Assembly: GCA_037833965.1 (NCBI GenBank)
Contig: AP031356.1
Coordinates: 8,330,501 to 8,394,500 of the forward strand
Origin: Marchantia polymorpha subsp. ruderalis
Lineage: Eukaryota > Streptophyta > Marchantiopsida > Marchantiales > Marchantiaceae
Reading direction: 5' to 3'
Length of the DNA: 64,000 nt
The notes below the pieces were generated by a model, which saw nothing but the letters and a program-made list of their open reading frames with translations, searched no databases and had not been told where the DNA came from. The translations under genes were made by a program, and so were the position numbers. Positions within the stretch are counted from its first letter, which is position 1; each line of letters opens with the position of its first letter. Shown piece by piece: positions 1 to 47,977 of the stretch.

Positions 1-72
1 CGCAGGGTAATACGCTCGCGGAGTTCAAATCCGCCAATTCGAGCGTGAGAGTTTAATCGACGACGGCGGAGC

Positions 73-3000
73 GTGAAGCCGCGCGTGAGAGCGAAGACCG
101 TTCCAGCGTACAGCCGGCGCGGCCATCAAGTGAGACGTTCTTCACGACCAAGAGTCGATCATGACCTTCGACCGGGAGCGGAGAATGTCCCATTCTTGAA
201 TTCGCGATTCCAATCTCTTGTGCGCGCTGCGCGCATCCATCTGCTGGCTGCGGAACATTCTCGACGTCGTCACACAGGAGATTTCTTGTTGATTGAGGGA
301 GAAGTGAGTGCGCGTGATTTGGAATTGAGGGCGATTAGAGTTTGCCGAGAGAGAAAGAAGCGCGGGCAGTGCGGAAGTAGAATGAGCGGGCGAGCGAACC
401 CCAGGAACGCAATGACGAGACCGAGCAGATTGAGGATGGTGCCACTTCGCCTGCCGCAGAACGGGCTGCGCGCTTTCGAGGAGCGCTTAATAGCAAGAAA
501 GCTCGATTTCTTGCTATGGGGATGGAATTACATCTGTGCGAATATGGTGCGCGAGTGGCTAGAGCCACAGGGACCACCCTCGCGCGGATTGCGTCCGCAT
601 GTTGATCGGTGGACAGTCCAAGATTGGGCGCAGGCGTTGGGAAGATGTGCTGGCATGCCAGGGCATCTCCTTTTCGACAGTGAGAGCATCAAGGTGACCA
701 AGCAAGAAGAGGCGCAATTTGTGGAGCTGTTCAAGACCGGGAGGTCTACCAAGAATGGGTACAGGACCCGTGATTACAAGGATCGATTTTGCCGGACTTT
801 GTCCGCGGCGCTGATGCAATTACTGCAGCCGCACCGCGCCTGCTACATCACATTGTGGCAGGTCTCTTTTGTGGAGTGCGTCATCGAGGGAACTCCAATT
901 CACTGGGCGAGCATCCTGCACAGGGTGATGCGACAGCACGCGTTTGAGGAGAAGGGGGGAACTCTAAACCATCTTTCTCCTTTCCTCATCAATTTTTATC
1001 GACAGCGGAATTGTTTGACAGCGGCGGAGCTTGAACATTTTCCGCCATTGTCCATCGACCATCCCGGGAAGTATGTGCGGGAGAACGAGGTCGACACTGA
1101 TGCAGAGGAGTCACCGACTTCTACCCCATCAAGACGGAGGGACGAAGGGAGACACACCCCTGCAGCGCGAGTGCCGCGGAAGCGGCGATGGAGGGAAGAG
1201 TCTGAAGAGGGGCAGCATCAAGAACCCTCTGCTCCCATTCGACCGCGGCCGCTGTGCGAGCCATACAGCCGGCCGAAGCAGAAGGCACGCAGACTGGTGT
1301 TGCCAGCTGACAGTGCAGACACGGCGACGATTGCGACGGAGATAGGAAGTTCGTCGCCAGAGAGGCGAGAGGAAGCGCGGACGACCGCAGGAGCAACGGG
1401 CCACGCTGCAACCTCGTCGGGAGAGAGGCCGCCTACGGGCCAAGGGCCTCCGGAGTTACCACGTGCGATGCGGACAGATGTTCCGTTTGCGCACAGGCGA
1501 ACCTCCGCGGACGGACGAGCCTCCGCGGACCGGCGAACACAAGTGGACGTGGATCTACGCTTACGCGTGGGAAGGAGCAGTCCGCCTGTGCACAGGCGCT
1601 CACCTGTGCACAGGTCGCCTGTGCACAGGACACCTCCACACGTGCCGCCTGTGCACAAGCAAGAATCACCCTCGTTCCAACGTAGGAAGGGGAAGGAGCC
1701 GGCGGAAGAACCGCCTACGAGACACCGGCCCTCGGGGCCAGACCCTCCGGCGCACCACGCGCCGCAATTTGCGCCTTCGGCGCCAGGGCCTTCGAGCCGA
1801 GGACATACGAGCAGAGAGCGTGCGGAGGCCGCACCATCGGCGGGAAGTCCGCCGATAGATGCGCCTTCGGCGGTAGGGCCTATAGGCCAAGGAACATCGG
1901 GCGTGCGGCCCCCGGCCATGTCGCCTTCGGCGATAGATGTCCGCGGCGCTAAGCCTGCGGCGGACAAGGCGCCGGCAAATGCGCCTGCGCACGGGCCGGG
2001 CACAGCCCCCACGGACCGATCAAGGGAGCAGCAGCAGACGGAGGAGCGGAGTGACTGTCCGCGGGATGAAATCTCGATGCGCGATGCGCAATCCAACCCC
2101 GCGCAGCCACCCTCCGCTCGATCGCCTTCGGCGACGGACGACGGCGACGGAGAGAACGCAGTAGGCAATCAACAAGCGAGCGACGGGGATGCCGCTCGGG
2201 TACATTCGCCTTCCGCCTTAGACATTTTGGCGACGAGCAGCGAGGCTGCAGCCGTGCCTTCGCAGGCAGCACACGTCGAGGACGTGCAGCCCCACTCGGG
2301 GCAGTCGCCGACGCAATCAATGGCGACTGAAATTCTCCACTCGGTTGATGACGACGGAGGCTCCACGGAAGAAATGTCAGGAGCAGAAGACACCGAGGAG
2401 GAGGAGGAGGAAATTGTTGGAGCGCCGGCGGCGGCGCTCTCTGAGCAGGTGATTCCGTTGCTGCGGTACTTGGATCGCAAGGTCGATAAATACGCCGACC
2501 CACTCCAGCCGGGATCTTACATCGAGTTAGTGCGCAGGCGGACTCGCACTAAAGTCCACACCAGCAAGCTATTAGCTAGAGTGGACCAGGAGTTGAAGGA
2601 CTTGAAGGAGAAGCATGCTTGCTTGTGGGGTCAGTACAAGCTTAATCAGAAATTCTACAAGCACTCCGAGAAGATGAAGGATGAGAAACTGGGCGAGCTC
2701 ACCAAGGAGCAGGTGAAGGTCAAGGAAGCACTCGATTCTGAGCAGGCCCAGAATCGGATTTTGTCAGAGGAGCTCGTGCGACAGACGCGGTTGTTAGAAC
2801 AATGTCAGCTCGCACGGCAGGCGGATGAAGAATTAATCCGCAGGTTACAGTCAGAGTGTGGCGAATTGAGAGCGCAACGTGCTGAAGCCGAATCGCAATT
2901 AGTGACACTTGAAGAAGATCGCAGGAAGGAGGCGGATCGCACGAAGGTGGAGACGGCGAGGCGAGTCGCCCACTGTCTCAAGGGCTACGCCCACTGGGAA

Positions 3001-3207
3001 GTAAAGGCGCAGGAGAAACTCACACTGCGAGAGTTTGAATTGCGCGCAGCCGGGTTGTTGTCAGGCGACAGTAGGAGTCGACGGAAGGTAGCAAAGAAGC
3101 TCGAAGCCTTTCTGTCGAAGGCACAGGATACCATGTCCGCCCTCGAGGGGGAGGTGTCCGCGGCGTTGCAGCGGTTGGGACTGCGCAGTCGAGCGGAAGA
3201 TTGGTAG
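73..3207 (+). CDS. Family ORF of copy A, C-terminally truncated
   Basis: Product of 1,044 aa as read, of the same family as the intact ORFs of B and E. The N-terminal domain starts near residue 114 (Met, MTRPSRLRM). It is followed by a proline-rich middle containing PVHRRSPVHRS, the acidic run EEEEEE and a C-terminal coiled coil. The layout (globular N-terminal domain, low-complexity middle, coiled coil) resembles the plant retroelement-associated 'putative plant transposon protein' group; this is inference, not a database match. Two defects compared with B: the ATG that starts B's ORF is at 162 here but in another frame because of a small indel near 175, and a CAG codon has become the stop TAG at 3205-3207, removing about 30 basic residues. 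No enzymatic motif is visible. Function unknown. Confidence 0.75.
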   Translation: MKPRVRAKTVPAYSRRGHQVRRSSRPRVDHDLRPGAENVPFLNSRFQSLVRAARIHLLAAEHSRRRHTGDFLLIEGEVSARDLELRAIRVCRERKKRGQCGSRMSGRANPRNAMTRPSRLRMVPLRLPQNGLRAFEERLIARKLDFLLWGWNYICANMVREWLEPQGPPSRGLRPHVDRWTVQDWAQALGRCAGMPGHLLFDSESIKVTKQEEAQFVELFKTGRSTKNGYRTRDYKDRFCRTLSAALMQLLQPHRACYITLWQVSFVECVIEGTPIHWASILHRVMRQHAFEEKGGTLNHLSPFLINFYRQRNCLTAAELEHFPPLSIDHPGKYVRENEVDTDAEESPTSTPSRRRDEGRHTPAARVPRKRRWREESEEGQHQEPSAPIRPRPLCEPYSRPKQKARRLVLPADSADTATIATEIGSSSPERREEARTTAGATGHAATSSGERPPTGQGPPELPRAMRTDVPFAHRRTSADGRASADRRTQVDVDLRLRVGRSSPPVHRRSPVHRSPVHRTPPHVPPVHKQESPSFQRRKGKEPAEEPPTRHRPSGPDPPAHHAPQFAPSAPGPSSRGHTSRERAEAAPSAGSPPIDAPSAVGPIGQGTSGVRPPAMSPSAIDVRGAKPAADKAPANAPAHGPGTAPTDRSREQQQTEERSDCPRDEISMRDAQSNPAQPPSARSPSATDDGDGENAVGNQQASDGDAARVHSPSALDILATSSEAAAVPSQAAHVEDVQPHSGQSPTQSMATEILHSVDDDGGSTEEMSGAEDTEEEEEEIVGAPAAALSEQVIPLLRYLDRKVDKYADPLQPGSYIELVRRRTRTKVHTSKLLARVDQELKDLKEKHACLWGQYKLNQKFYKHSEKMKDEKLGELTKEQVKVKEALDSEQAQNRILSEELVRQTRLLEQCQLARQADEELIRRLQSECGELRAQRAEAESQLVTLEEDRRKEADRTKVETARRVAHCLKGYAHWEVKAQEKLTLREFELRAAGLLSGDSRSRRKVAKKLEAFLSKAQDTMSALEGEVSAALQRLGLRSRAEDW
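1583..1659 (+). repeat. Palindrome cluster CCTGTGCACAGG within the ORF
   Basis: Four copies of the core CCTGTGCACAGG or a near variant occur within 77 bp, some extended to CGCCTGTGCACAGGCG. In frame they encode the repeated residues PVHR. The same palindrome also occurs outside coding sequence, in the 5' leader of B and E. Other clades of the family (C, D, I) carry GCCTACGCGTAGGC-type palindromes at the corresponding place. Confidence 0.85.
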
Positions 3208-3336
3208 GGTAGGGAGTTAGTGCGCGGCAGACGGCCGCGCAGGAGGCGTAGTACAGGTTCCGCGGAGTGTAGTGTAGCGTGGTTCCGTGCAGGCGTGTAG
3301 CGTAGTGCAGTGTAGTGTTAGGTAGGACTTAGAAGG

Positions 3337-3365
3337 TATAAAATAGTTCCAGGCGTTTTGCCTGG
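3337..3365 (+). promoter_or_regulatory. TATA box plus conserved hairpin, copy A
   Basis: TATAAAAT at 3337-3344 is followed at 3349-3365 by a perfect 6-bp stem (CCAGGC, loop GTTTT, GCCTGG). It lies about 130 bp after the ORF and 950 bp before the element's 3' end. The same arrangement occurs in B, D, E, J, F and H. A TATA box downstream of the ORF suggests that transcription from this site would leave the unit, as in the U3-R-U5 layout of an LTR. Confidence 0.6.
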
Positions 3366-4313
3366 GGTTCTTTCCCATCAGAAGTGCAGATCAGGAACCC
3401 ATTTCCTTTGCGTGTTTGTGTCCTTGAGTTCTGTCACCACGCACGAGGAGTTACAACTTAGCGTTCCGCATTTTGTAGCTGAAGGCCTTCGGCCGAATGT
3501 TCAGAGCTAGTACATTGGTTAGAGACTTGAGTAGTTCGGAACTGCACCTGCGGGTGACTGCCGATGCTCAGAGCCAGTGACTAGTTAGATACTTGAACAG
3601 TTTCGCCCCTACACCTTCGAGTGTTTCTTTCTGATTGTACTCCTTTGGGATTTTTCCCCTGAATGCCAAAGTGAAGTTTTGCTACTTCGTGTAAGCCTTG
3701 GTTGTAAATTCAGGTTACGCTGCAGCAGGTGCCTTGAGGGTAACCCCTGTAGTATTTCTGGGAATGACAAGTGCCTGAGAATTCAAACTCTTCAATAGAC
3801 TGTTGTTGTGTTACTGGAATGTTTCACAGTGAGTCCTCCAGTGCGGACCTGTGTTCTCTGCGCGTTTTGCGAGTTGAGAGTGTTGTTCACCGCATATGAG
3901 TGACTTCGATCCGAAGTAGGCAGTCCAAACTGGGTTTCCTACACTAGCAGCAAGCTAGTGGAAGTGTTGTAAAAGCCGGAGTTGGAAGTCACTACCCGCA
4001 GCTTCGCCGAGTGTGCTCGCGAGAGACTTTCCCCCCCTGAAATCTTGAGTAGAGGTCCTAACGGATCTCTAGGTTGTGTTTCTGTAGTTTCAGGTGTGTG
4101 TGTGTGTGTGTGTGTTACGCTGCACTGTGCGACCTCCGAGTGCGCTCCGAGTGGACACTTGCAGTATTTCTGGGAGTGACAGTTGCCTGAGAATTCAAAC
4201 TCCTCAATAGTCTGTTAAAACGTGACACTTTGTATCCTGTGTGTTCCTCTGTCCCTGTGGGTTCGACCTTTCTACCACTATATTGCAGTTTTAGCCTTTA
4301 GTGGGTTATTACA

Positions 4314-6395
4314 CCAACGGTAACCCAACCCCATGATGGGTAATGGATGTAACACTGGTGTCGGGGCATTGAATGATGCCCTCACTCGATCACAAACCAT
4401 GCAATGTGATACCAACTGCTGTACCTGAGTATGCATACCACGCCACCAATACTGACCAAGGAGTAAGCTGTATGTACGCTTCACTTCAAAATGTCCCAAC
4501 TCCTCATGAGCATGCCTCACAATGCGTGCTCTCTGGGCTGGATGTGGTACTACTCGTACCCTACCGTCCTCCCACACTCGGAGAACATGTGATTCCTCCA
4601 ATCGGTACCTCTTGGCCCGTTGGAGAACACGATCTCGCTCCTTGGCACCCACTGTGCCTGGCACCATGCTGGTTCGTAGGAACTCCAACACCAATGCATC
4701 ATCGTGTACATCACGCTGATCCACACCACCATCCTCAACCTCAGGATCTGGAGATCGACCATCTACTCTCTGACTAGAGTAAGATGTCAGATGATCCTCT
4801 CTGCTGGAGTTCCCACGTAACCAACACATGAAGGCAGATGCATGCCAACCAGGCACCATCTCTTGATCAACCTCACCATGCCATCTAGCTCCAGTGTCAT
4901 CCTCCTGGCTAGTGCATGGGTTTCGACTCAAACCATCGGCATCTAGGTTCGCAACTCCAGGTCTATGCACCACCTGAAAGTCGTACTCCTGTAAGATGAG
5001 AGCCCACCGTGCAAGCTTCCCTGTAAGCTTGTCGGACTCCATCAACCACTTGAGCGGTTGATGATCAGTAACAAGGGTGAACTGCGTACCAAACAAGTAA
5101 CACCTGAAGTGCGCCACAGCCCACACCGCTGCCAAGCACTCTCCCTCGTACGAACTATACCGCGACTCCGCTGCATTGTTCGAACGACTAGCGTACGCAA
5201 CCACAAACTTCTTGCCCTCATCATCACGCTGCGTCAACACCGCTCCAAGTCCCAACATACTCCAATCAGTGTGCAATTGGTATGGACGACCTCTGATAGG
5301 TCTCCTCAAGATGGGAGCGGCCACCAACCTGGCCTTTAGCTCAACAAAAGCTCTCTCTTGCTCATCTCCCCATTGCCACTCCTGATCTGACTTCAGCAAC
5401 TGGTTCAAAGGCTTGGCTATAGCACTGAACCCCTTCACATACCTCCGGTAGTAGTTCGCTAAACCCATAAATGCACGAACTCTACTCACATCCGTGGAAC
5501 GAGGGATGCGTGCAATAGCCTCCACCTTTGCTTGCTGAACTCCTAAACCACCTGGGTATATCACATGACCCAAGTACTCAACCTTCTCCTGGAAGAACTT
5601 ACACTTCCCAGGATGTAACCTCAAACCATGAGCCCTCAATCGCTCAAACACAATCTGCAAGTGTATCTGGTGTTGCTCCACAATGTCACTAAACACCAAG
5701 ATATCATCAATGTAACATCTGACAAAATCCAGCCCCGCCAGGATTCTGTCCATAACCCTCTGAAACTCGGCAGGTGCATTCTTCAACCCAAAGGGTAAGA
5801 ATCGCCACTGATACAAACAATCCTTGCCGTGGGAGTTGACGCCCCAAAACGCTGTCTTGGTTTTGTCCTCCTCCCGAATTGGCAACTGATGGTATCCTGC
5901 CCGAAGATCCAAAGTACTAAAAATCCTCGCATGTTCCACCACATCGAAGATCTCCTAAGGTGTAGGCATGGCATACTTATCGGACTTCGTCTGCCGATTG
6001 ATAGGACGGTAGTCTCCACACATGCGCCTATCCGTGTAGTTGCCATGTACATCCTTCTTCACCGGCATGACAGTGGCTGACGCATACTCACCATGCGATA
6101 ACTCCACTAGTCCAGCCTCCAGTAGGTCCAACGTCCTACTCCGAATCAAATCTCTTTCCATCTCACTGTATCGATAAGGACGACGGAAGATTGGCGTATC
6201 ACTAGCCAATTCTATCCGTATACCGGGTCCAATCAAAGCATCCAACTCCTTCATACTGAAAGCAAAACAACTCCTATAGTCTCGTAGGAATTGTGTCAAT
6301 CGTCGCCTCTCTCCTCCTGTGATCTGGGAACCAATCAATGGCTCCCATTCCTCCTCCATATGCACACTAGAGGGAGGCGACACTGTCAATGGTTG
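4314..6395 (-). pseudogene. pol: Reverse transcriptase, RNase H and integrase N-terminus of the gypsy element
   Basis: In frame with the methyltransferase block above. RT N-terminal part: MPVKKDVHGNYTDRRMCGDY. After TAG at 5955-5957 come the catalytic motif STLDLRAGYHQ, FLPFGLKNAPAEFQRVMD and the active-site YIDD (CYIDDILVFS, residues 77-80 after the stop). RNase H: YQLHTDWSMLGLGAVLTQ and LVTDHQPLKWL. Integrase HHCC zinc finger: HAHEELGH ... CMVCDRV. The frame then runs into PLPIMGLGYRW and is cut by copy A at 4313. The TAG at 5955 sits where relatives have Gln or Glu (MPTP-x-EIF), so a CAG-to-TAG change is likely. Defective copy. Confidence 0.92.
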
Positions 6396-7589
6396 CTACG
6401 CTACACACTGCAAAGAAGGGTTCTCCATACCCTCCTTCGTAGCCACCTCCACGTGAGAATCCTCTCCAACTGCATGGGCTGCAACTCTGGCAAGTCCTTT
6501 CGTCACGTCCCATAAACTCCAAGGATGACGAATATCTTGCCTGTCGCCCCCAGCCATTGCCACTACCGTCCCGGTAGGCAATGAGCTAATAAGTGGTGTT
6601 ACGACCACCAAATTTGCGCGCAAACGGCGTTGCTCGGCCAAACCCAAGCTCACAATCCACGTCAAGCAGTTCAGGTCCATAGCCTGACCCAAAACTTGAC
6701 TACGCGACGCCTCTGAAATTGAAGAAGCCGCGGTCACACCAGTAAGAAACCCCATCGCACGCTCTCTCTCATCAGCGTTGGGCTCCACCAACTGATGTAG
6801 GGTACTGTTCCATAGTAGTCCATGTCCACCATCACGATATGCATGTGATGCCGGATAACTGACAAATGTAGGTAAAGCCATCCAAGGCTGACCTACGCGG
6901 TTCACCAACGCCATAGGTGACCGGTCAGCAACTCTCACTACTTGAGAGTGCCGGGAAACATCCAAGATACTGTCAACGGTGAGGGTAGTATCACGCTTCA
7001 CCGAATCATAGGCATGACGCAATATCTCACGTGGCAAAAGGTTGGTCCACCACAAACGTGCACGATGCGCCCGTGATCCAACCCTCGCAGCATCCAACAA
7101 TACTGCTGATTCAATCCATGCTCGGACTTGATGGACACTCGCCATCAACTGGGCCCGAGTGTCACCCAACAATGGTATGTTCTCCAGAATGTATGCTGGA
7201 GAACGTGTCTGCTGCACTTGGAGATGACGTAACACTCGCATCATCTCCCAAAACATCCGAGATCTGGGATCATGGAACCCTGTCCCATGTCCAGCGCGTG
7301 TGTGTCCCTGACATGGCCAGCCCGCAATCACCATATCAATATGGCCAACGCGGTCAAGGTCTGGCGCCCCAGCAACAAAATGTCTGAAGGCAACGCCTTC
7401 TGGAATCCTCGGACAGCTGATCGCGGCAACAACGAAGGAAAACGCCGCATCAACTGTGCAACATGTCGTGAAGAGACTCGACGTGCAGTCTCGTCTTTCT
7501 CCACATATAAGTATCTCCGTACGAGAATACCTGACTGCAACACTGCAGCCAAACCTGTGCTGATTCCAGCAAAAAGATCCAGCAAACAA
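6396..7589 (-). pseudogene. Cytosine-5 DNA methyltransferase domain (DNMT3-like) in gypsy pol
   Basis: C5-methyltransferase motifs occur in the correct order: motif I LLDLFAGISTGLAAV (about 7585-7541), motif II YVEKDETARRV (about 7510-7480), motif IV MVIAGWPCQG with the catalytic Cys of PCQ (about 7330-7300), motif VI LENI (about 7184), motif VIII AHRARLWW (about 7073), and motifs IX-X with RERAMGFLTGVTA and SQVLGQAMDLNCLTWIV (6782-6650). The spacing of 'DA-x-V-x3-HRAR-x-WW-x-NL' and 'ER-x-x-GF ... LG' is closest to DNMT3-type enzymes, judged from family knowledge. A single-nucleotide frameshift in a T-rich stretch near 7380 separates motifs II and IV. The domain is followed in frame by TAG at 6396-6398 and then RT. 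The family methylates carbon 5 of cytosine in DNA. Confidence 0.88.
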
Positions 7590-8590
7590 ACACCCTCTGA
7601 GGAATACTCCCATGCAATAGGTGTAGTAACCAATGGAGACAATGCGCTAGACCCACTTACTAGCCGATCAGCTGAAGCCCTGTCTGGCTCTGCTGGTAAA
7701 GAGGCTTCACTCCAAGCCTTTTTCACCAACCTATCAGCCTCCAACTGTAGTGCCTGGCACGAACTCCACAGTGGAACATCTAAGGGTGAAGTCACCGCTG
7801 CTGTGCAACCCACAATCTCCTCCACATCCTCGTAGAGTGAGGTATCGTTGGCAGTCATGTTCCCCTCCAACAAGTCATCAGGCCAAGTAAGCACTCCGCT
7901 AAAACCCGCAACATATGCCAAGACCGCTGATGAAGATCCAAGAGGTCGATCCCGAGAAATAAATCTCACTGGCAGCTCGCTCAGACGTCCATCTCCGGAC
8001 TGCCAACCAGGACGATATGCGGCAGTCTCCGTCCAATAGTCCATCCGAAAGCCCATCGGGTATAACACCACTCCACCAACAAGCACATCATATGACTCTG
8101 CTGATGTAACCACAGCACGAACTCCAAACTGCGAGCTATCATGAGGGTGATCATGCCTCAACTGCACCGCTATGCTCTCCTTGGTCATAAAGTAAGACCT
8201 ATTGCTGGCGCCACCAAGGGATGTCTGGATCTGGAATGGGCAAGGTTCCAACTCTGACCTCCGAATGCCCAAACTAATGCATGCAGCCTTGCCCAACATC
8301 AAGGGCTGTGCACTAGAATCCAACAAAACTCTGGCTGGGACATACACCTGTCCAGTAGAACTCACTAACCGAAATAGACCACTTCGGTTGTCCACCATAC
8401 ATACATCAGGAACAATACTCTCGCGATCAATGGCTGGGCGAGCTGGTAAGGACTCCATCCTCGCCGCTGCGGCCTGCCAAGTCGTCTCCTCGAACAATGT
8501 AGACGTTGAGGATGGGTCCTCAACTGTATCCTCACGTATCTCGGCACTCGTAGCAGCGACTCTCCCATGCTCACACGACGTGGCTGCCAC
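7590..8590 (-). pseudogene. Retropepsin-like aspartic protease region
   Basis: The active-site signature is VLLDSSAQPLMLG, with the catalytic Asp at about residue 91 of this block (codon near 8318), in the D-[ST]-[SG]-A form of retroviral-type proteases. A second conserved-looking strand, ESYDVLVGGVVLYPMG, follows about 75 residues later and resembles the 'DVILGMDWL' strand of gypsy proteases. The region continues without interruption into the methyltransferase motif I at about 7585, so protease and methyltransferase were translated as one polyprotein. The upstream stop at 8591 makes this copy inactive. Assignment rests on the motif and its place between gag and RT. Confidence 0.7.
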
Positions 8591-9169
8591 TCAAAATACT
8601 CGAGCCAAATCAATACCAGAGTCTATCAACTTCGTGGCTGAAAACAATGGAGATCGCAAGACTGAAATGGCCATCCGCATCACTGCACTAGATGGCACGT
8701 CTGCGTCCACCACAGATGATGTAAGAACCTCAGTTCTCACTCTAGTGTCACTAGGCGGTGCATGTCTCATAGATGAACTGCTACCCACCTCTGACAACAA
8801 AAAGGACTGGGGAAGTCTAGACTGACGTCCACCCTCACCCCTCTGAGGGTCCAACTCCACAGTCGCACCACGTGGCTCTGAAGTGCGAGCACCACCTCTG
8901 GTTACTGCAACTGATGCCTCAACCTGTGCTGCACTGGCCAAATAGGAGAAATCCTCTCCCTCGTAAGATGTGGAAGTGCTCGTCCCCAGACCAGCCATAG
9001 CAGCAAGCCTCTGCTCCAACTGCTCAATCCGAGCAGCCATAGCGCTCTCTGTGGCGGAAGTAGCACTCGCTGCAGTACGCTCAATGGTTCCAGTACCTCT
9101 ACCACCTCTACCGCCTCTGCCACCTCGACCACCTCGGCCTCGTGGAGCATCACCTCCACGACCTCTACC
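8591..9169 (-). pseudogene. Gag-protease linker (RG-rich, coiled coil)
   Basis: This continues the gag frame beyond the TGA at 9170. It opens with a glycine/arginine-rich stretch (GRGRGGDAPRGRGG), followed by a short heptad-like segment (ARIEQLEQRLAAMAGL) and a low-complexity serine/threonine-rich tail. It ends at TGA 8591-8593, and the next open block follows in the same frame. No catalytic motif is seen. Basic RG repeats next to zinc knuckles fit nucleic-acid binding, which is inference. Confidence 0.6.
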
Positions 9170-10467
9170 TCAAGATCTCAACTGAGGATGAAGGTCAAAG
9201 CAACGCTCTCGAGGGTGACCCGGTCGATGACAATGATCACAGGTCACCTGTGCCGGCTGTGGCCTAGCATGTGGAGTTTGTCCCCCTCGCTCTTGGGGAC
9301 AATCCTTCCTCATATGGCTACCTCCGCATGTCCAACATGACGGTCCCTGTGGCTGGCCCGAAAATGAAGGCAGTGGTGGCCGCGCACTAGGCTCTCTATG
9401 ACCTGAAGGATGTCGTGTATGACCTCCACGACTCCCACTTATGGGGCGAGACTGTGCTGGGCTATGTGGGATACGCGAGGTAGTGGTCGTGTCCCTCACA
9501 AATGTAGACGTCACCACCCTCTCCTCCACCATGTTAAGCTCAATCTTCTCAGAAAGAGCAAACACATGGGCTAATGTGGGTGATGAGTCGCTTATGAGAG
9601 TAGCATCACGCACTCTCCTCCGCAACTCTCTGTCCAAGATCCGATACCAGTACTGGACAGCCTGTGCCTCAGTCACACCGTGAGTAACTTAGATGAGCCG
9701 TCGCATACGAGTGTATGCCTCACGAAGACTCTCACCAGTCTTTCGCTCAAACTCCTGGAGGCTCCTCAACTTCTCCGTTTTCACCCCCTGATAATTCTTC
9801 CTCAATCTCTGGAAGAACTCAGGGATGGGGCTAAACGAAGGTACGCCACTAGCATCTCCCCTCGTGCTGCCACCGGCAATGCTAACAGTACCGCTGCTGG
9901 TACTAGTACCAGTTGCGCCAACTGCTCCACTGGTACCCTCGCTGATGCTACTACTCTCACCTCCACTGATGCCGATACTCGCAGCTCCACTGGTACTCAC
10001 ACCACCCTGGGTAATGGATGAGTAGTTCGGAGACCAATGCCGTCTCCATGCATCAATCTCTACAGCATACTCTCTCCCAAACTCATGATAATCGTCCATG
10101 GGAGGCCCCTCCAAATGCTGGAATAATCCCTTCCATGCAAAGAAGGGTGTAAACAACGTGGGGTTACGCAGAAACTGCATATCACACCACGTGTCAAACT
10201 CCTGAATAAAATCATCAAGCTCGATGGTGCCCACTGCACCAGAGTAACGTCGAGGACCCTTCGCGGCCCCGTACATCCCGTCCATGTCCCAAATCAATGG
10301 GGTGGGGACACTGGACGATATCACCACCAAAGGCTCTGTGTCTGCAACACTCTGGTCGTGCTCCGCAGCAACTGGCAAAATAGGTGAAGGTAGCCGATAC
10401 CTCAACCCGCTCCGCGTAAATCCACCGCGGTCCTCAACAGGACCACTAGACTGCTCCGTGATGACGA
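9170..10467 (-). pseudogene. gag: gag of the gypsy element
   Basis: Structural nucleocapsid polyprotein. The first block (9689-10467) contains ELDDFIQEFDTWCDMQ and YHEFGREYAVEIDAWRR, typical of a gypsy gag core. The second block (9170-9676) contains VQYWYRILDRELRRRVRDA and then two CCHC zinc knuckles, CWTCGGSHMRKDC (CX2CX3HX4C) and CDHCHRPGHPRERC (CX2CX4HX4C), which bind RNA. The blocks are in one frame, interrupted by TAA at 9689-9691. No ATG is obvious at the very 5' end of the open stretch; the first plausible one is in MDGMYGAAKGP. The reading frame ends at TGA 9170-9172 inside a run of Arg-Gly codons, best explained as a CGA-to-TGA change. Confidence 0.85.
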
Positions 10468-10470
10468 GAC

Positions 10471-11105
10471 CTCAACTGGCACCACTGCCAGATCTCCACC
10501 CAATAACCCAATCCGCCCCTGACGTCGTGCCGCACTGAGTTACTCTAGCCCTACTAGCTAAGGGGTATGGGCAACCTAACCTGTCATCACAGCAAGAAGA
10601 CTCTCACGGTCTACTGGTCATCACTCCAGTCTCACCGTGAGAGAAACATAGAAATCAGCGTCATCCCTACACGGGCACGCACTAGGAAGCAAGACTGGAG
10701 AGGATCCAAACACAAGCAACCAGCTAGCAACGACTCTCCAGTCTAAAGGAAACACAGCACAAAACAAGACAACACACACGGGACATCGCATCGCTTCGCG
10801 ATCCCGATTCGATCTCCATCGCCCTCCATATACGTGGGCCTCCAATGCCTATGATGCCCTCTTCCACCAAATTGCAAACAAAAATTGTTTGAAAACTTCT
10901 CTTTTTTTTTCTTTTTTTTCTTTTCTTCACACAGGGGTCACACTGCCCCTCAACAAACACACTACACACTGAAAGCTCAATATATTGACTACGTCATATA
11001 TATATTTACAATGCTTTCAAAACATCACGTTTACAGGTAGTGAGACCGCGTGCAAACTCCCGATCACTTCAGTACCTCCTGTCTAAACGATACAAGTATT
11101 TGCTA
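10471..11105. other. Probable gypsy 5' LTR/leader region, boundaries unresolved
   Basis: No coding sequence is seen. There is a pyrimidine-rich run on the + strand at about 10900-10925 and an AT-rich TATATATAT segment near 10999-11010. By position this should contain the gypsy 5' LTR and primer-binding site, but the other LTR is outside the window, so the ends cannot be defined. The right part may instead be the 3' flank of the split host ORF. Confidence 0.35.
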
Positions 11106-11323
11106 TCAATCCTTTGGAAGACTATCAAGAAATTTCTCTAGTACAAGAATTTCTTCTGAAAGACAGTCTTGAACATACTGAACATCTCTCAAATGGTCAG
11201 CAATATCCTGCGGAAGGTCTAGTAACTCATCATCACATACCCTGTACTCTAGGCCGGATTCCTCTAGAAGTTTTTCCACGGCTAGTGCCTCGTCCCAATC
11301 TAACCCGGAATCTTTTTCTTCTA
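11106..11323 (-). pseudogene. C-terminal part of unidentified host ORF, split by copy B
   Basis: Encodes about 71 residues starting EKDSGLDWDEALAVEKLLEE, acidic and leucine-rich, ending LEKFLDSLPKD then stop. The N-terminal part is at 16721-16888. Removing copy B and one TTCTA copy joins the two in the same frame (56 + 71 codons), so this was one continuous exon. I do not recognise the protein. Coordinates include the 5-bp duplication. Confidence 0.6.
11319..11323. repeat. Target-site duplication TTCTA of copy B
   Basis: TTCTA here immediately precedes TGTGGTACCCCAC, and TTCTA at 16721-16725 immediately follows GTGGGTTATTACA. This perfect 5-bp duplication defines the exact ends of the element. 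Confidence 0.95.
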
Positions 11324-11830
11324 TGTGGTACCCCACTTTTGGCAATTTTGAGGAAATTAAAACATTTTTGAAAAACTGTACCCTGGCAGCCTTGTAAATA
11401 GCCTTCGGTACATCAAAACAGAGTGAATCCGGAAGATCGCGGGGATTCTCGAGGGATCTTGTAGAATCTGGGATTTGGGGTGCCGCAGCAAGGACAGGCA
11501 CCACCCTCCCTGCGAGCTCCGCAGTTAGGATCTCTACGGCGCAAGGCGCAAAACCCGCCTTCGGAGGTTGCGTCCGCGGCTGTAGGGAAACCCCCCGTAA
11601 TTAGGTAAACCCTCGGGCGCCTTGACCAAGTTAGGGTCCCGTTGGAAAGAGCTCGACGCGCTGATTCTAACGAGCCCAAGAACGCTTGGAACGGACGAGG
11701 ACTTAGGGAGTTATCGCTACTGGAAGAAACGGAGGCGGTCGCCTACGGCGGAAGGAGTTCGCCACCGGCGCGAATTCCGCCTACGCGGAAGAGGGAATCA
11801 AGTTTTGTCCTATGCGCGGGCGAAGGCGTT

Positions 11831-12284
11831 CGCCTGTGCACAGGCGAAGTAGGGTGAGGGAAGGCGCGAAGTCCGCCTACGCACAGGCGTTCGCCTGTGC
11901 ACAGGTATTTCGGCGTCGGCGGGAAATCCGCCTTGGGCCCTAGAAATGCGCCTTGTGAGGTAGAAAGTGTACGGCGCCTTCCGCGCCAGCGCAGCGCCGC
12001 GTACGTCGGAAGAGCCGCCAGAGTAATCCAACAGGTACGGACCGTGCGGACGGCACGGGTGGATGCGCTCTTGGACGGACGGAGTTGCGGCGGCGGAAGC
12101 GCCGACGGAGAGACAAGGAACGGACAGACTGGACGGAGACGGCTGACCACGGTCAACGCCTTCCGCGCCAGCGCAGCGCCGCGGACGGAATTCGCCTGCG
12201 CACAGGCGAACGCCTGTGCACAGGAGGATGTTCAAGTTCCGCGCCGGCGGAGAATCCGCCGAGGCCCCTGCCTGCGCACAGGCA
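11831..12284. repeat. Palindrome-rich 5' leader of copy B
   Basis: Contains CGCCTGTGCACAGGCG at 11831-11846, another GCCTGTGCACAGG near 11893, a mixed GCCTGCGCACAGGC and CGCCTGTGCACAGG pair near 12193-12224, and GCCTGCGCACAGGC near 12269. A 26-bp stretch ending GCGCAGCGCCGCG occurs twice (about 11970 and 12161). The degenerate W-box palindrome is at 12142-12157. No ORF of note. Confidence 0.8.
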
Positions 12285-12570
12285 GGAGTTGAATTTTTGT
12301 CCGACATGCGGACACACGCGTCAAGGCAGAAGGAGATTGGCCGAGGGGCGGTACGAACAAGTGTACCGCGCAAGGCGGAAAACTCGCCTTCGGCGCTACG
12401 CCCCCATGTCCACAGGGTGACACGCTCGCGGAGTTCAAATCCGCCAATTCGAGCGTGAGAGTTTAATCGACGACGGCGGAGCGTGAAGCCGCGCGTGAGA
12501 GCGAAGACCGTTCCAGCGTACAGCCGGCGCGGCCATCAAGTGAGACGTTCTTCACGACCAAGAGCCGACC

Positions 12571-15500
12571 ATGACCTTCGACCGGGCGGCGGAGAACGTC
12601 CCATTCTTGAATTCGCGATTCCAATCTCTTGTGCGCGCTGCGCGCATCCATCTGCTGGCTGCGGACCATTCTCGACGTCGTCACACAGGAGATTTCTTGT
12701 TGATTGAGGGAGAAGTGAGTGCGCGTGATTTGGAATTGAGAGCGATTAGAGTTTGCCGAGAGAGAAAGAAACGCGGACAGTGCGGAAGTAGAATGAGCGG
12801 GCGAGCGAACCCCAGGAACGCAATGACGAGACCGAGCAGATTGCGGATGGTGCCACTTCGCCTGCCGCAGAACGAGCTGCGCGCTTTCGAAGAGCGCTTA
12901 ATAGCAAGAAAGCTCGATTTCTTGCTATGGGGATGGAATTACATCTGCGCGAATATGGTGCGCGAGTGGCTAGAGCCACAGGGACCACCCTCGCGCGGAT
13001 TGCGTCCGCATGTTGACCGGTGGACAGTCCAAGATTGGGCGCAGGCGTTGGGAAGATGTGCTGGCATGCCAGGGCATCTCCTTTTCGACAGTGAGAGCAT
13101 CAAGGTGACCAAGCAAGAAGAGGCGCAATTTGTGGAGCTGTTCAAGACCGGGAGGTCTACCAAGAATGGGTACAGGACCCGTGATTACAAGGATCGATTT
13201 CGCCGGACTCTGTCCGCGGCGCTGATGCAATTACTGCAGCCGCACCGCGCCTGCTACATCACATTGTGGCAGGTCTCTTTTGTGGAGTGCGTCATCGAGG
13301 GAACTCCAATTCACTGGGCGAGCATCCTGCACAGGGTGATGCGACAGCACGCGTTTGAGGAGAAGGGGGGAACTCTAAACCATCTTTCTCCTTTCCTCAT
13401 CAATTTTTATCGACAGCGGAATTGTTTGACAGCGGCGGAGCTTGAACATTTTCCGCCATTGTCCATCGACCATCCCGGGAAGTATGTGCGGGAGAACAAG
13501 GTCGACACTGATGCGGAGGAGTCACCGACTTCTACCCCATCAAGACGGAGGGATGAAGGGAGACACACTCCTGCAGCGCGAGTGCCGCGGAAGCGGCGAT
13601 GGAGGGAAGAGTCCGAAGAGGAGCAGCATCAAGAACCCTCTGCTCCCATTCGACCGCGGCCGCTGTGCGAGCCATGCAGCCGGCCGAAGCAGAAGGCACG
13701 CAGACTGGTGTTACCAGCTGACAGTGCAGACACGGCGACAATTGCGACGGAGATAGGAAGTGCGTCGCCAGAAAGGCGAGAGGAAGCGCGGACGACCCAA
13801 GGAACAACGGGCCACGCTGCAACCTCGTCGGGAGAGAGGCCGCCTACGGGCCAAGGGCCTCCGGAGTTACCACGTGCGATGCGGACAGATGTTCCGTTTG
13901 CGCACAGGCGAACCTCCGCGGACGGACGAGCCTCCGCGGACCGGCGAACACAAGTGGACGTGGATCTACGCTTACGCGTGGGAAGGAGCAGTCCGCCTGT
14001 GCACAGGCGCTCACCAGTGCACAGGTCGCCTCTGCACAGGACACCTCCACACGTGCCGCCTGTGCACAGGCAAGAATCACCCCCGTTCCAACGCAGGAAG
14101 GGGAAGGAGCCGGCGGAAGAACCGCCTACGAGACACCGGCCCTCGGGGCCAGACCCTCCGGCGCACCACGCGCCGCAATTTGCGCCTTCGGCGCCAGGGC
14201 CTTCGAGCCGAGGGGATACGAGCAGAGAGCGTGCGGAGGCCGCACCATCGGCGGGAAGTCCGCCGATAGATGCGCCTTCGGCGGTAGGGCCTATAGGCCA
14301 AGGAACATCGGGCGTGCGGCCCCCGGCCATGTCGCCTTCGGCGATAGATGTCCGCGGCGCTACGCCTGCGGCGAACAAGGCGCCGGCAAATGCGCCTGCG
14401 CACGGGCCGAGCACAGCCCCCACGGACCGATCAAGGGAGCAGCAGACGGAGGAGCGGAGTGACTGTCCGCGGGATGAAATCTCGATACGCGATGCGCAAT
14501 CCAACCCCGCGCAGCCACCCTCCGCTCAATCGCCTTCGGCGACGGACGACGGCGACAGAGAGAATGCGGTAGGCAATCAACCAGCGAGCGACGGGGATGC
14601 CGCTCGGATACATTCGCCTTCCGCCTTAGACATTTTGGCGACGAGCAGCGAGGCTGCAGCCGTGCCTTCGCAGGCAGCACACGTCGAGGACGTGCAGCCC
14701 CACTCTGGGCAGTCGCCGACACAATCAATGGCGACTGAAATTCTCCACTCGGATGATGACGACAGAGGCTCCACGGAAGAAATGTCAGGAGCAGAAGACA
14801 CCGAGGAGGAGGAGGAGGAAATTGTTGGAGCGCCGGCGGCGGCGCTCTCTGAGCAGGTGATTCCGTTGCTGCGGTACTTGGATCGCAAGGTCGATAAATA
14901 CGCCGACCCACTCCAGCCGGGATCTTACATCGAGTTAGTGCGCAGGCGGACTCGCACTAAAGTCCACACCAGCAAGCTATTAGCTAGAGTGGACCAGGAG
15001 TTGAGGGACTTGAAGGAGAAGCATGAGTGCTTGTGGGGACAGTACAAGCTTAATCAGAAATTCTACAAGCACTCCGAGAAGATGAAGGATGAGAAACTGG
15101 GCGAGCTCACCAAGGAGCAGGTGAAGGTCAAGGAAGCACTCGATTCTAAGCAGGCCCAGAATCGGATTTTGTCAGAGGAGCTCGTGCGACAGACGCGGTT
15201 GTTGGAACAATGTCAGCTCGCACGGCAGGCGGATGAAGAATTAATCCGCAGGTTACAGTCAGAGTGTGGCGAATTGAGAGCGCAACGTGCTGAAGCCGAA
15301 TCGCAATTAGTGATGATTGAAGAGGATCGCAGGAAGGAGGCGGATCGCACGAAGGTGGAGACGGCGAGGCGAGTCGCCCACTGTCTCAAGGGCTACGCCC
15401 ACTGGGAAGTGAAGGCGCAGGAGAAACTCACACTGCGTGAGTTTGAATTGCGCGCAGCCGGGTTGTTGTTAGGCGACAGTAGGAGTCGGCGGAAGGTAGC

Positions 15501-15708
15501 GAAGAAGCTCGAGGCCTTTCTGTCGAAGGCACAGGATACCATGTCCGCCCTCGAGGGGGAGGTGTCCGCGGCGTTGCAGCGGTTGGGGCTGCGCAGTCGA
15601 GCGGAAGAGTGGCAGGGTAGGGAGTTAGTGCGCGGCAGTCGGCCGCGCAGGAGACGTAGTACAGGTTCCGCGGAGTGTAGTGTAGCGTGGTTCCGTGCAG
15701 GCGTGTAG
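12571..15708 (+). CDS. Intact 1,045-aa family protein, copy B
   Basis: The start at ATG 12571 (MTFDRAAENVPFLNSRF) is chosen because the corresponding Met is conserved in E, D and C. Residues 85-305 form the conserved domain (PLRLPQNELRAFEERL, WTVQDWAQALGRC, GYRTRDYKDRFRR, GGTLNHLSPFLINFY). PRKRRWREE near 340 is a likely nuclear localisation signal. Residues 316-706 are Pro/Ser/Ala-rich and encoded largely by palindromes. An acidic EEEEEE run lies near 745, a coiled coil at about 808-937, and a basic tail with RPRRRRSTGS at the end. No transposase DDE, RT or protease motif is visible. The layout resembles plant retroelement-associated 'putative plant transposon' proteins (inference). A DNA- or RNA-binding, self-associating role is possible but unproven. 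Confidence 0.85.
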   Translation: MTFDRAAENVPFLNSRFQSLVRAARIHLLAADHSRRRHTGDFLLIEGEVSARDLELRAIRVCRERKKRGQCGSRMSGRANPRNAMTRPSRLRMVPLRLPQNELRAFEERLIARKLDFLLWGWNYICANMVREWLEPQGPPSRGLRPHVDRWTVQDWAQALGRCAGMPGHLLFDSESIKVTKQEEAQFVELFKTGRSTKNGYRTRDYKDRFRRTLSAALMQLLQPHRACYITLWQVSFVECVIEGTPIHWASILHRVMRQHAFEEKGGTLNHLSPFLINFYRQRNCLTAAELEHFPPLSIDHPGKYVRENKVDTDAEESPTSTPSRRRDEGRHTPAARVPRKRRWREESEEEQHQEPSAPIRPRPLCEPCSRPKQKARRLVLPADSADTATIATEIGSASPERREEARTTQGTTGHAATSSGERPPTGQGPPELPRAMRTDVPFAHRRTSADGRASADRRTQVDVDLRLRVGRSSPPVHRRSPVHRSPLHRTPPHVPPVHRQESPPFQRRKGKEPAEEPPTRHRPSGPDPPAHHAPQFAPSAPGPSSRGDTSRERAEAAPSAGSPPIDAPSAVGPIGQGTSGVRPPAMSPSAIDVRGATPAANKAPANAPAHGPSTAPTDRSREQQTEERSDCPRDEISIRDAQSNPAQPPSAQSPSATDDGDRENAVGNQPASDGDAARIHSPSALDILATSSEAAAVPSQAAHVEDVQPHSGQSPTQSMATEILHSDDDDRGSTEEMSGAEDTEEEEEEIVGAPAAALSEQVIPLLRYLDRKVDKYADPLQPGSYIELVRRRTRTKVHTSKLLARVDQELRDLKEKHECLWGQYKLNQKFYKHSEKMKDEKLGELTKEQVKVKEALDSKQAQNRILSEELVRQTRLLEQCQLARQADEELIRRLQSECGELRAQRAEAESQLVMIEEDRRKEADRTKVETARRVAHCLKGYAHWEVKAQEKLTLREFELRAAGLLLGDSRSRRKVAKKLEAFLSKAQDTMSALEGEVSAALQRLGLRSRAEEWQGRELVRGSRPRRRRSTGSAECSVAWFRAGV

Positions 15709-15744
15709 CGTAGTGCAGTGTAGTGTTAGTTAGGACTTAGAAGG

Positions 15745-15773
15745 TATAAAATAGTTCCAGGCGTTTTGCCTGG
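15745..15773 (+). promoter_or_regulatory. TATA box plus hairpin, copy B
   Basis: TATAAAAT at 15745-15752 and stem-loop CCAGGC-GTTTT-GCCTGG at 15757-15773, the same as in copies A, E and J. Confidence 0.6.
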
Positions 15774-16720
15774 GGTTCTTTCCCATCAGAAGTGCAGATC
15801 AGGAACCCATTTCCTTTGCGTGTTTGTGTCCTTGAGTTCTGTCACCACGCACGAGGAGTTACAACTTAGCGTTCCGCATTTTGTAGCTGAAGGCCTTTGG
15901 CCGAATGTTCAGAGCTAGTACATTGGTTAGAGACTTGAGTAGTTCGGATCTGCACCTGCGGGTGACTGCCGATGCTCAGAGCCAGTGACTAGTTAGATAC
16001 TTGAACAGTTTCGCCCCTACACCTTCGAGTGTTTCTTTCTGATTGTACTCCTTTGGGATTTTTCCCCTGAATGCCAAAGTGAAGTTTTGCTACTTCGTGT
16101 AAGCCTTGGTTGTAAATTCAGGTTACGCTGCAGCAGGTGCTTTGAGGGTAACCCCTGTAGTATTTCTGGGAATGACAAGTGCCTGAGAATTCAAACTCTT
16201 CAATAGACTGTTGTTGTGTTACTGGAATGTTTCACAGTGAGTCCTTCAGTGCGGACCTGTGTTCTCTGCGCGTTTTGTGAGTTGAGAGTGTTGTTCACCG
16301 CGTAGGAGTGACTTCGATCCGAAGTAGGCAGTCCAAACCGGGTTTCCTACACTAGCAGCAAGCTAGTGGAAGGGTTGTAAAAGCCGGAGTTGGAAGTCAC
16401 TGCCCGCAGCTTCACCGAGTGTGCTCGCGAGAGACTTTCCCCCTGAAATCTTGAAGTAGAGGTCCTAACGGATCTCTGGGTTGTGTTTCTGTAGTTTCAG
16501 GTGTGTGTGTGTGTGTGTGTTTTACGCTGCACTGTGCGACCTCCGAGTGCGCTCCGAGTGGACACTTGCAGTATTTCTGGGAGTGACAGTTGCCTGAGAA
16601 TTCAAACTCCTCAATAGTCTGTTAAAACGTGACACTTTGTACCCTGTGTGTTCCTCTGTCCCTGTGGGTTCGACCTTTCTACCACTATATTGCAGTTTTA
16701 GCCTTTAGTGGGTTATTACA

Positions 16721-16888
16721 TTCTACCACAACAGGGTTTACCACATTCTCTTCTACTTGAGGCTGCACCCTCACCTCCTGCTCCTGATCACGTTCCTCGG
16801 TGCTGACGACCTCCACTGTCTGGATTTCTTGTATATCACTATCGTCCGCTTTTCCTCCAAGCGGCATTTCTTCTTCACGCGTCAACAC
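16721..16888 (-). pseudogene. N-terminal part of the host ORF split by copy B
   Basis: 56 codons, very acidic and glutamine-rich (DIQEIQTVEVVSTEERDQEQ), ending ...NPVVVE exactly at the insertion. The frame is open upstream to a stop at 16910-16912. The first ATG is MPLGGKADDSD, so this may be an internal exon with a splice acceptor near 16890. With 11106-11318 it forms one ORF of about 127 residues. Unidentified. Confidence 0.55.
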
Positions 16889-19800: not shown

Positions 19801-20040
19801 AATTACCCTACTGGCAACAAACCGTCACCGTCACAAACATGAGTCAAGCCCAACCCACTCCACACTCGGAGAATCCAGGTCGACGCAAAGGGGAAAGTCA
19901 CTATACGCTCCCAACGCTTCCAGGCTCGACTCGAAGAACTAACGTTCTTCGAGCCGTCCCCGACTGTATACCCCTCGTGACCCAAACCCTAACTTCACGG
20001 CTAAATATAGTAAGTGTCTAAACTTCGTGAGCCGACTCGT
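16889..20040. other. Spacer without a recognisable gene
   Basis: AT-rich to mixed sequence. Short open frames exist on both strands (for example 18241-18630 plus and 18190-18435 minus, overlapping), but none shows a domain, a repeat pattern or a conserved neighbour. Upstream exons, introns or the promoter of the split minus-strand host ORF may lie here; I see no convincing splice pattern. Confidence 0.5.
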
Positions 20041-23872: not shown

Positions 23873-24348
23873 CGCGCGCACTAGAAAATGAAATCGCGAA
23901 TTCAAGAATGGGGCGTCCTCCGTCTCCTGGTTGAAGGTCATGGTCGGCTCTCGGTCGTGAGGGTCGAATCACTTGATGGCCGCGCCGGCTCCGCGCTAAA
24001 ACGGTCTCCTCTCTCACGCGCGGCTTCACGCTCCGCCGACGCCGATTTAACTCACACGCTCGAATTGGCAAATTTGAACTCCGCTAGCGTACTACGCAGC
24101 GGACACGGGTGCGCAGCGCCGAAGGCGGATTTCTCGCCTTGCGCGCTACACTCGTTCGTGCCACTCTTCGGCCAATCTCCCTCCGCCGAAGGCGATCGTC
24201 CGCGCATCGGACAAAAGTTGAACTCCCTTCTGCGTAGGCGGAATCCCCGGCGGAATCTCCGCCGGCGCGGAACTTCATCTGCCTGTGCGTAGGCGCTCGC
24301 CTACGCGTAGGCAAATTCCGTCCGCGCTGCTGCGCTGGCGCCGAAGGC

Positions 24349-24364
24349 GTTGACCGCGGTCAAC
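24349..24364. repeat. 16-bp palindrome with inverted W-boxes, copy I
   Basis: GTTGACCGCGGTCAAC is a perfect palindrome of two facing TTGAC cores. The same sequence is at 43735-43750 (C) and 51490-51505 (D), with degraded forms in B and E. Confidence 0.7.
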
Positions 24365-25179
24365 AGGCTCCGTCCAGTCTGTCCATTTCTTGCCTCCCCG
24401 TCGGCGCTCTTGTCGCCGTCACTCCGTCCGACCGAAGACGCATCCATCCGTTCCGTCCGTACAGTCCGTACGGTCCGTACAGATTTTACTACTCCGGTGG
24501 GTCCTCGCCCGTCCGCGCTGCTGCGCTGGCGCGAAAGGCGCCGTACAATTTCTAACCCCGAAGGCGCATTTCTAGGGCCGAAGGCGGATTTCCTGCCGAC
24601 GCCGAAGCGCCTGTGCGTAGGCGAACTTCGCTCGTCCGCCTGGGCAGAGGTTTCCTCGTCTACGAGTAGGCGACATTCGCGGCGGACATCGCGCCGACGA
24701 CAAACCCTATTTTGCCTACGCGTAGGCGAATTGCCTTCGTCCGCGCATAGGACAAACTTTCCTCGCCTACTCGTAGGCGAGAAGCTGAGTATCTTGCGAC
24801 CTTCATAACTCCCGGAGTCCTCATCCGTTCGTGGCGTTCTTGGGCTCGTTAGAATCAGCGCGTCGAGCTCTTTCCAACAAGACCCTAACCAAGTCGAGGC
24901 GTTCGGAAATTGACCAAGTTCTGAAGGATTCCTCTAGCGCCGAAGGCGGATTTTTCTCCTTGCGCCGAAGGGGTTATTCCTTCAGAGCCCGCATGTAGGG
25001 TGGTGTCCGTCCCCGACGTTGCACCCAACTCCTGGATTCTACAAGTTCTCTCGAGAATCTCTGCGATCTTCCGATTTCACTCTGTTTTGATGCACCGAAG
25101 GCTATTTACACTGCTGCCGCGGTACAGTTTTCCAAAAATGTTTTAATTTACTCAATAATACCAAAAGTGGGGTACCACA

Positions 25180-30864: not shown

Positions 30865-30879
30865 TGGACTCGTATGGCG

Positions 30880-31485: not shown

Positions 31486-31544
31486 GGTGTCCACCTCCAG
31501 AGAAATATAAAACTCAATTCTCCATGTATTGTTCAATCTCCATG
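31352..31544. repeat. 193-bp direct repeat, left copy (host gene 5' end)
   Basis: Same length as 34398-34590 with two mismatches and no gap. It covers the start codon, the signal-peptide region and about 60 bp upstream of the gene at 30880-31485. Both copies begin at CCAAC, the flanking pentamer of copy J. Confidence 0.95.
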
Positions 31545-33389: not shown

Positions 33390-33425
33390 CGTAGTGCAGT
33401 GTAGTGCTAGGTAGGACTTAGAAGG

Positions 33426-38736: not shown

Positions 38737-38745
38737 TTGCTCTTA

Positions 38746-47943: not shown

Positions 47944-47977
47944 TTCTAAGTCCTAACTAACACTATACTGCACTACG

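Follow-up and report, generated by a model that had tools for sequence, protein, structure and literature searches.

Retrotransposons that carry DNA methyltransferases (MTases) of the DNMT3 type have been described in streptophytes and dinoflagellates (PMC12344493). In KnitGypsy-Dnmt3 of Klebsormidium nitens, a Dnmt3 domain lies within an intronless gypsy polyprotein that is accompanied by DIRS-like repeats and has a Ka/Ks below 0.2; in SymbioDIRS-Dnmt3 of Symbiodinium, a Dnmt3-like domain lies in the polyprotein of an element with the repeat layout A-coding region-B-A-B, which the legend of Fig. 1 of the same paper gives for DIRS elements (PMC5890265; de Mendoza et al., 2018). The SymbioDIRS-Dnmt3 enzymes were found to methylate CG de novo in a yeast assay (PMC5890265). 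DNMT-bearing transposons have been stated not to be present in land plants (PMC6338049), and the portion of PMC6453930 available to us held nothing on retrotransposon DNMTs. Here we analysed 64,000 nucleotides of the liverwort Marchantia polymorpha subsp. ruderalis (contig AP031356.1, positions 8,330,501 to 8,394,500 of the forward strand; hereafter the window), in which the minus strand carries, between 10471 and 4314, the broken coding region of a gypsy-type retrotransposon with a C5 MTase. We lean towards regarding this copy as a broken member of a large, recently active retrotransposon family in which the MTase would be a working part, explained by a scheme of Gag-side delivery and methylation of the element's complementary DNA (cDNA).

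A gypsy element carrying an MTase is an already known kind, represented by KnitGypsy-Dnmt3, and the initial annotation had noted retrotransposons with captured MTases in charophytes and dinoflagellates. The Marchantia family resembles KnitGypsy-Dnmt3 in its intronless polyprotein open reading frame (ORF) containing the MTase, in purifying selection (Ka/Ks below 0.2 there, 0.17 here) and in a DIRS-like repeat structure combined with gypsy domains, a likeness compared by description and not by sequence. It differs in its land-plant host, in its at least 144 genomic matches, in the motif UAG-CARYYA before the reverse transcriptase (RT) and in a PHD finger on the integrase. From SymbioDIRS-Dnmt3, which has a tyrosine recombinase, it is set apart by a DDE integrase and 4-bp target duplications. 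Apparently new are a host among land plants, a conserved stop by which the enzyme falls on the Gag side, and an integrase with a PHD finger. The main text of PMC5890265 contains neither 'PHD' nor 'readthrough', and 'stop codon' appears once, in a legend on other elements, while its figures and supplements may hold such features. Among titles and abstract openings of the open-licence literature no land-plant case, gypsy PHD integrase or readthrough of this kind surfaced, which is weak evidence of absence.

The MTase was searched for across the whole genome (241,466,482 bases in nine contigs, eight of 24-33 Mb and one of 5.59 Mb, which fits the n = 9 of Marchantia). The search returned 144 scored matches among 565 candidates, which were spread over all nine contigs and were 85-100% identical; by our own count from the match table, 25 of the 144 fell within an uninterrupted frame of 1351 codons or more, which corresponds to the length of ORF1. 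The initial annotation had proposed looking for intact copies and had given the domain order as gag, protease, MTase, RT, RNase H and integrase, and both points were borne out by two copies with both ORFs open (L215 and L216). In these, ORF1 (1361 codons) and ORF2 (1042 codons) share one frame and are divided by a single UAG. ORF1 is intronless and carries the PF00145 MTase after gag and protease, and ORF2 contains RT, RNase H, the H2C2 finger and the DDE integrase core (PF00078, PF17917/PF17919, PF17921 and PF00665), followed by a C-terminal PHD finger (PF00628, E 3.6e-10 in L215 and 9.4e-11 in L216).

The complete anatomy runs from A1 through a 5' region that bears a small acidic ORF to ORF1, UAG CARYYA, ORF2, B1, A2 and B2. 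Self-comparison of L215 and L216 gave only B1/B2 and no pair of long terminal repeats (LTRs), A1 and A2 being split repeats. The A-coding-B-A-B arrangement was present in three of three complete copies, and the window retains A1. These copies, at C6:25.23, C6:28.80 and C9:10.16 Mb, have TG...CA ends and, with flanks read by eye, 4-bp duplications ATCT, GGTT and AAAG; identity between A1 and A2, measured in two copies, was 99.7% and 99.0%. No Pfam match to a tyrosine recombinase was obtained in ORF1 or ORF2 of L215 or in ORF2 of L216. The element is not of the standard LTR type, its repeats being split as in DIRS elements, nor is it a DIRS retrotransposon, as it has a DDE integrase and 4-bp target duplications. 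The label Ty3/gypsy given at first holds for the RT, RNase H and DDE integrase and for the TG...CA ends with short target duplications, but not for the repeats. Rfam and tRNA scans gave no match.

The stretch between A1 and the leader differs between copies; beside the leader, L220 preserves the small acidic ORF, which is also present in the window but divided there by an insertion. L215 diverges from L216 upstream of base 777, its 5' region being absent or exchanged. In one complete copy (L217, C6:25230194-25234693), the interval that separates A1 from the leader holds on the minus strand, at about 2981-3739, a fragment that by eye resembles the BRR2 helicase, as if pieces of host genes were captured in this variable region. 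When 40 3' ends were paired with MTase matches, the MTase lay 3.0-4.8 kb away on the expected side in 26, nearer or farther (1.8-12 kb) in seven, and was not in the list for seven; this pairing is weak, as it used 61 of the 144 match rows (some chosen near 3' ends) and four further places, with the MTase strand unchecked.

The window copy was 97.7% identical to the copy in L216 across 6349 columns. Along the two followed frames (1021 and 1027 codons, 2048 in total) five stops were counted, against about 98 expected from shuffles, and the sole frame change falls between motifs I and IV of the MTase, in agreement with the frame continuity first claimed apart from one shift and stops. Gag, a protease-like stretch, the C5 MTase (PF00145, E 1.5e-9), RT, RNase H and the integrase H2C2 finger follow one another on the minus strand, the last three within 6389-4314 with Pfam E values of 3.7e-31, 1.5e-36 and 9e-15, and every MTase motif quoted by the initial annotation was present in the stated order. 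The retropepsin-like stretch gave only a weak Pfam match, and its motif is altered relative to L216 (Table 1). The copy is CpG-depleted (CpG observed/expected 0.68, TpG+CpA 1.30, against CpG values of 1.04-1.08 in the neighbouring insertions named C elements below), which fits decay of methylated DNA.

The extent of 4314-10470 assigned at first is correct for the remains of the two ORFs, yet the element itself is larger. The 5' end of the element was placed at 20052, since window 19775-20052 matches L216 8977-8700 at 96.8% identity and 19 of 42 aligned rows start no more than four bases from there; a 5' LTR at about 10955-10490 was accordingly rejected. Window 11323-10651 matches L216 267-952 at 93.9% identity, 39 other scored places also match it, and a 5.4-kb insertion splits this 5' region. 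The integrase core, PHD finger and 3' repeats of the window copy fall outside the window; a B-A-B end on the same strand, about 28 kb leftward at C7:8305798-8306509, is a candidate for its 3' end only.

The codon between MTase and RT was TAG in 44 of 46 copies, the other two having a gap and a different sequence, so that it is kept in 44 of the 45 aligned copies (97.8%). The surrounding stretch evolves fast, with only 6.9% of nearby codons invariant. The six bases 3' of TAG in these 44 copies were CAACCA in 40, CAACTA in two and CAACAA in two, and thus CARYYA fits 42 of 44. This UAG-CARYYA is shared with tobacco mosaic virus (TMV), where CAR YYA 3' of UAG has been described as essential for readthrough of the RNA, and the rice gypsy element RIRE2 has been named as a readthrough candidate (PMC2754532). 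Among the 28 copies listed, the MTase frame ended at TAG in 23 and at an earlier or other stop in five, and behind TAG the frame stayed open to the locus end (431 codons) in 17 of those 23. Such constancy makes it probable that the stop at 6398 was programmed and did not arise by decay. It stands between gag-protease-MTase and RT-RNase H-integrase, and the MTase would therefore be outside the RT-integrase product; here, in difference to the plant viruses and elements with stop readthrough, the stop follows an MTase, which would belong to the non-readthrough product. The enzyme had been annotated as a domain of the pol polyprotein and not a neighbouring gene, and it does lie inside ORF1 of a repeated element, though this UAG separates it from RT, RNase H and integrase.

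The MTase is under purifying selection near the level of the protease. Its mean pairwise dN/dS over codons was 0.173 (95% 0.118-0.246) in 46 copies, compared with 0.148 for the protease (41 copies), 0.363 for the linker before the MTase (45) and 0.634 for the tail just after it (46); being within-family pairwise means, these values mix selected branches with neutral post-insertion ones and overstate the ratio under selection. The MTase region was stop-free in 38 of the 46 copies, and the catalytic motifs were kept as GWPCQG in 42, LENV in 44 (LENI in one more) and AHRARLW in 45.

A second lineage with this layout was found in contig CADCWO010000201.1 (L003/L224), which is filed under a cyanobacterial metagenome-assembled genome (MAG) and has gypsy content. 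It carries gag-protease-MTase in one ORF, TAG CAATCA, RT-RNase H-integrase and PHD-like cysteines (by eye), so that domain order, stop and PHD finger would be common to two lineages. Its MTase is 48% and its RT-RNase H-integrase 67% identical to the Marchantia family, while the tail before the stop is unalignable between them (best E 0.46). Split repeats were not found within the contig. Its first and last 127 bases are identical, so that the ends join to a circle, which may be extrachromosomal DNA or an assembly effect of repeats. We take it for misbinned eukaryote DNA from another organism.

For the origin of the enzyme, the MTase piece 6603-7400 was compared with solved chains, and DNMT3A came first (E 4.7e-7), followed by M.HaeIII (7.4e-4), M.HhaI (2.5e-3), DNMT2 (0.02) and DRM2 (0.65). 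The linear motif order I-IV-VI-VIII-X is likewise DNMT3-like, the order in DRM being rearranged; the host itself has one DNMT3-like gene (motif IV GFPCQDLS) and two DRM-like genes with rearranged motifs (L194 from C6:12457920, L196 and L212). Descent from DNMT3 on the best PDB match alone was rejected, as one control phage MTase matched DNMT3B first and the other M.HhaI first with DNMT3B just behind. The DNMT3 type annotated at first is only the nearest solved fold, one that these control phage enzymes share or nearly share. The predicted fold was closest to DNMT3A/B and M.HhaI, with M.HhaI and DNMT3A tied within 1 Z and the model alignment mostly prokaryotic and viral; prediction from the single sequence was of low confidence (pLDDT 35.5).

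A tree of the MTase, of the kind that the initial annotation had recommended, was built with DNMT3, DRM and prokaryote/phage rows, for which a motif rule gave a usable ORF in 51 of 164 prokaryote/viral loci and dereplication left 45. The best tree placed the element MTase beside DNMT3+DRM with weak support (85/38), the bootstrap being unsettled and the retroelement rows of unusual composition, and approximately unbiased (AU) tests did not settle the origin. Grouping with 33 prokaryote/phage rows was not rejected (p 0.37), which together with the phage-like motif IV GWPCQG and a Vibrio phage MTase that outscores DNMT3A against the window piece (67.8 vs 50.8 bits) makes it possible that the enzyme came from a prokaryote or phage C5 MTase and not by capture of a host DNMT3. 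That origin would sit less well with the best tree position, and the AU tests did not reject grouping with host DNMT3 either (p 0.41 and 0.29). Bacterial contamination, which had been named as a way in which the annotation could fail, was judged unlikely and set aside. In the scan of prokaryote genome contigs with the MTase alignment (best 80 of 85 relatives), the top match had 48% identity over 248 residues and the next 41% over 105, and the 48% match is the misfiled gypsy contig described above; no other prokaryote or viral match among those listed exceeded 41%, and the closest covered no more than about 110 residues. In viral contigs, no relative was found with the MTase and RT pieces of the window, while the MTase alignment gave generic MTases (best 80 of 466, at most 39% identical) and alignment query A2 three weak matches. 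The genome-contig scan with a single sequence found nothing.

Domain order, split repeats, TG...CA ends, 4-bp duplications, the conserved stop and selection on the MTase are the observed parts from which a mechanism can be proposed. Most ribosomes would halt at UAG and yield Gag-protease-MTase, so that the MTase would be packed into the particle at a Gag-like dose, and a minority would read through into the RT-integrase part; the anatomy speaks for such Gag-side delivery. In the particle the MTase may methylate the new double-stranded cDNA before integration, so that the copy would arrive with host-like marks. Methylation of cDNA seems the most natural use of an MTase in the particle because cDNA is the DNA at hand, and it might protect or disguise the cDNA. 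The combination of a DDE integrase with split repeats suggests, from the repeats alone, an unusual completion of the cDNA, which may proceed via a circular or junction-bearing intermediate instead of ordinary LTR strand transfer before the DDE integrase inserts it. The predicted PHD finger makes chromatin-guided integration likely, in that it would read histone H3 and steer insertion. Taken more broadly, and with rather less assurance, we tentatively see here an old and still mobile streptophyte class, extending from charophytes to land plants, in which a writer of methylation made at Gag dose by means of readthrough would mark the cDNA, a PHD integrase would pick the chromatin and replication would be a gypsy/DIRS hybrid.

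Several points weigh against the proposed scheme. For KnitGypsy-Dnmt3, the closest published relative, no methylating activity was seen in yeast, which its authors held inconclusive because human DNMT3B failed too (PMC5890265); CAACAA in two of 44 copies departs from YYA; and the RT, with a dN/dS of 0.341, was comparable in only 27 of 46 copies, so that the two halves of the element are judged on unequal material. The inactivity in yeast (PMC5890265), along with stops in the MTase of eight of 46 copies, is what one would expect if the MTase were a passenger, captured once and spread by hitchhiking with no role, yet such a passenger should hardly show a dN/dS near that of the protease when the flanking stretches reach 0.36-0.63, nor be retained in the second lineage of CADCWO010000201.1, and we regard this as very improbable. 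The two CAACAA copies would also suit a UAG that is an ordinary fixed stop, ORF2 being expressed by reinitiation, an internal start or a separate RNA, and ORF2 could indeed start at a downstream codon. Against this stand the near-invariance of TAG in a stretch with so few invariant codons, the continuation of ORF2 in the same frame and the recurrence of TAG with CAR-YYA beside an MTase only 48% identical, which leave an ordinary stop improbable.

A stronger contender, which we still consider unlikely, has the MTase acting not on particle cDNA but on host chromatin, integrated copies or element RNA, where it would compete with host silencing or mimic it. The generic enzyme fold, closest to DNMT3A/B and M.HhaI, would allow this, the PHD integrase of the same element suggests contact with chromatin, and the window copy has lost CpG as expected of methylated DNA. 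This loss, however, is silent on which enzyme did the methylating, and the position of the MTase in the Gag-side product, 5' of the conserved stop, favours delivery into the particle. The scheme of Gag-side delivery and cDNA methylation remains the one towards which we lean.

The features of the window copy are collected in Table 1. Two insertions of one family unrelated to the retrotransposon, here called the C element, interrupt it on the plus strand, one splitting its 5' region and the other cutting its integrase. Complete copies of the C element measure 5368-5397 bp (three read), with TGTGG...TTACA ends and, in four copies, 5-bp duplications TTCTA, GCTAC, CTCAC and GTAAC. The 4.3-5.4 kb repeats flanking the retrotransposon were considered as its LTRs and rejected, being unrelated insertion copies with their own 5-bp duplications and oriented against the element. 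At the junction on the integrase side, target duplication is absent and the integrase end of another gypsy element adjoins (by eye), so that this junction is rearranged; in L214, the roughly 390 bases to the left of the first C element read by eye like the plus-strand integrase C-terminus of that other gypsy element, with the C element in opposite orientation. No Pfam match above cut-off was obtained for the 1045-aa ORF of the C element. Its ends are imperfectly inverted (13/19 by eye), and no LTR pair was seen; it is a mobile element, perhaps a DNA transposon or a giant solo LTR with an ORF. Members of this nested family occupy 1-4313, 11324-16720, 20841-25179, 31544-34404, 42935-46974, 46974-52341, 52592-57985 and 57986-59025.

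Table 1. Features of the MTase-carrying retrotransposon and its insertions in the window
Feature	Position	Strand	Basis
5' terminal repeat A1 (TGTCATGTAG...), same sequence as internal A2 of complete copies	19747..20052	-	alignment to L216
5' region between A1 and leader, copy-variable; holds first part of small acidic ORF (16909-16721)	16721..19746	-	
Inserted unrelated C element, 5397 bp, 1045-aa ORF, TGTGG...TTACA, 5-bp duplication TTCTA; no part of the retrotransposon	11324..16720	+	
Remaining 5' region: end of small acidic ORF (to 11106) and untranslated leader	10472..11323	-	alignment to L216
ORF1 (gag-protease-methyltransferase), interrupted by one frame change and three stops; open length 1361 codons (L215/L216)	6399..10471	-	
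Gag, two CCHC zinc knuckles	about 9196..9339	-	translation, motif read by eye
Aspartic protease-like region	about 7890..8410	-	PF08284 E 0.19, motif DSS (DSG in L216)
C5 MTase domain: motifs I LLDLFAG, IV GWPCQG, VI LENI, VIII AHRARLWW, IX/X ERERAMGF, LGQAMDL	6630..7590	-	
Conserved UAG then CAACCA (UAG-CARYYA); probable programmed readthrough stop that separates MTase from RT	6396..6398	-	
ORF2 with RT, RNase H and integrase H2C2 finger; truncated at 4314, one stop inside	4314..6395	-	
Second C element truncating the retrotransposon; flanks GGGCA left, CCAAC right, no target duplication	1..4313	+	

Elsewhere in the window, a 1297-codon ORF resembling a leucine-rich repeat receptor lies on the minus strand at 26989-30879; antisense to its repeats, the plus strand carries an open frame of 539 aa at 28306-29925. 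Part of a cytochrome P450 (PF00067), divided over two frames and probably either a pair of exons or a pseudogene, lies at 35732-36341 on the plus strand, and 36000-42900 forms an A+T-rich island (GC 0.385, CpG observed/expected 0.66) within the G+C-richer repeat landscape.

An element kind reported absent from land plants may well be alive in a liverwort. Marchantia, in which 25 of the 144 scored matches lie in a full-length ORF1 frame, would contradict the wide form of that statement (PMC6338049), the case at hand being one liverwort. The question standing since 2018, what a mobile element gains from a DNA methyltransferase of its own, becomes testable in a tractable plant, where the conserved stop gives a prediction of how much enzyme is made and where it goes, and the PHD finger one of a partner for targeting.

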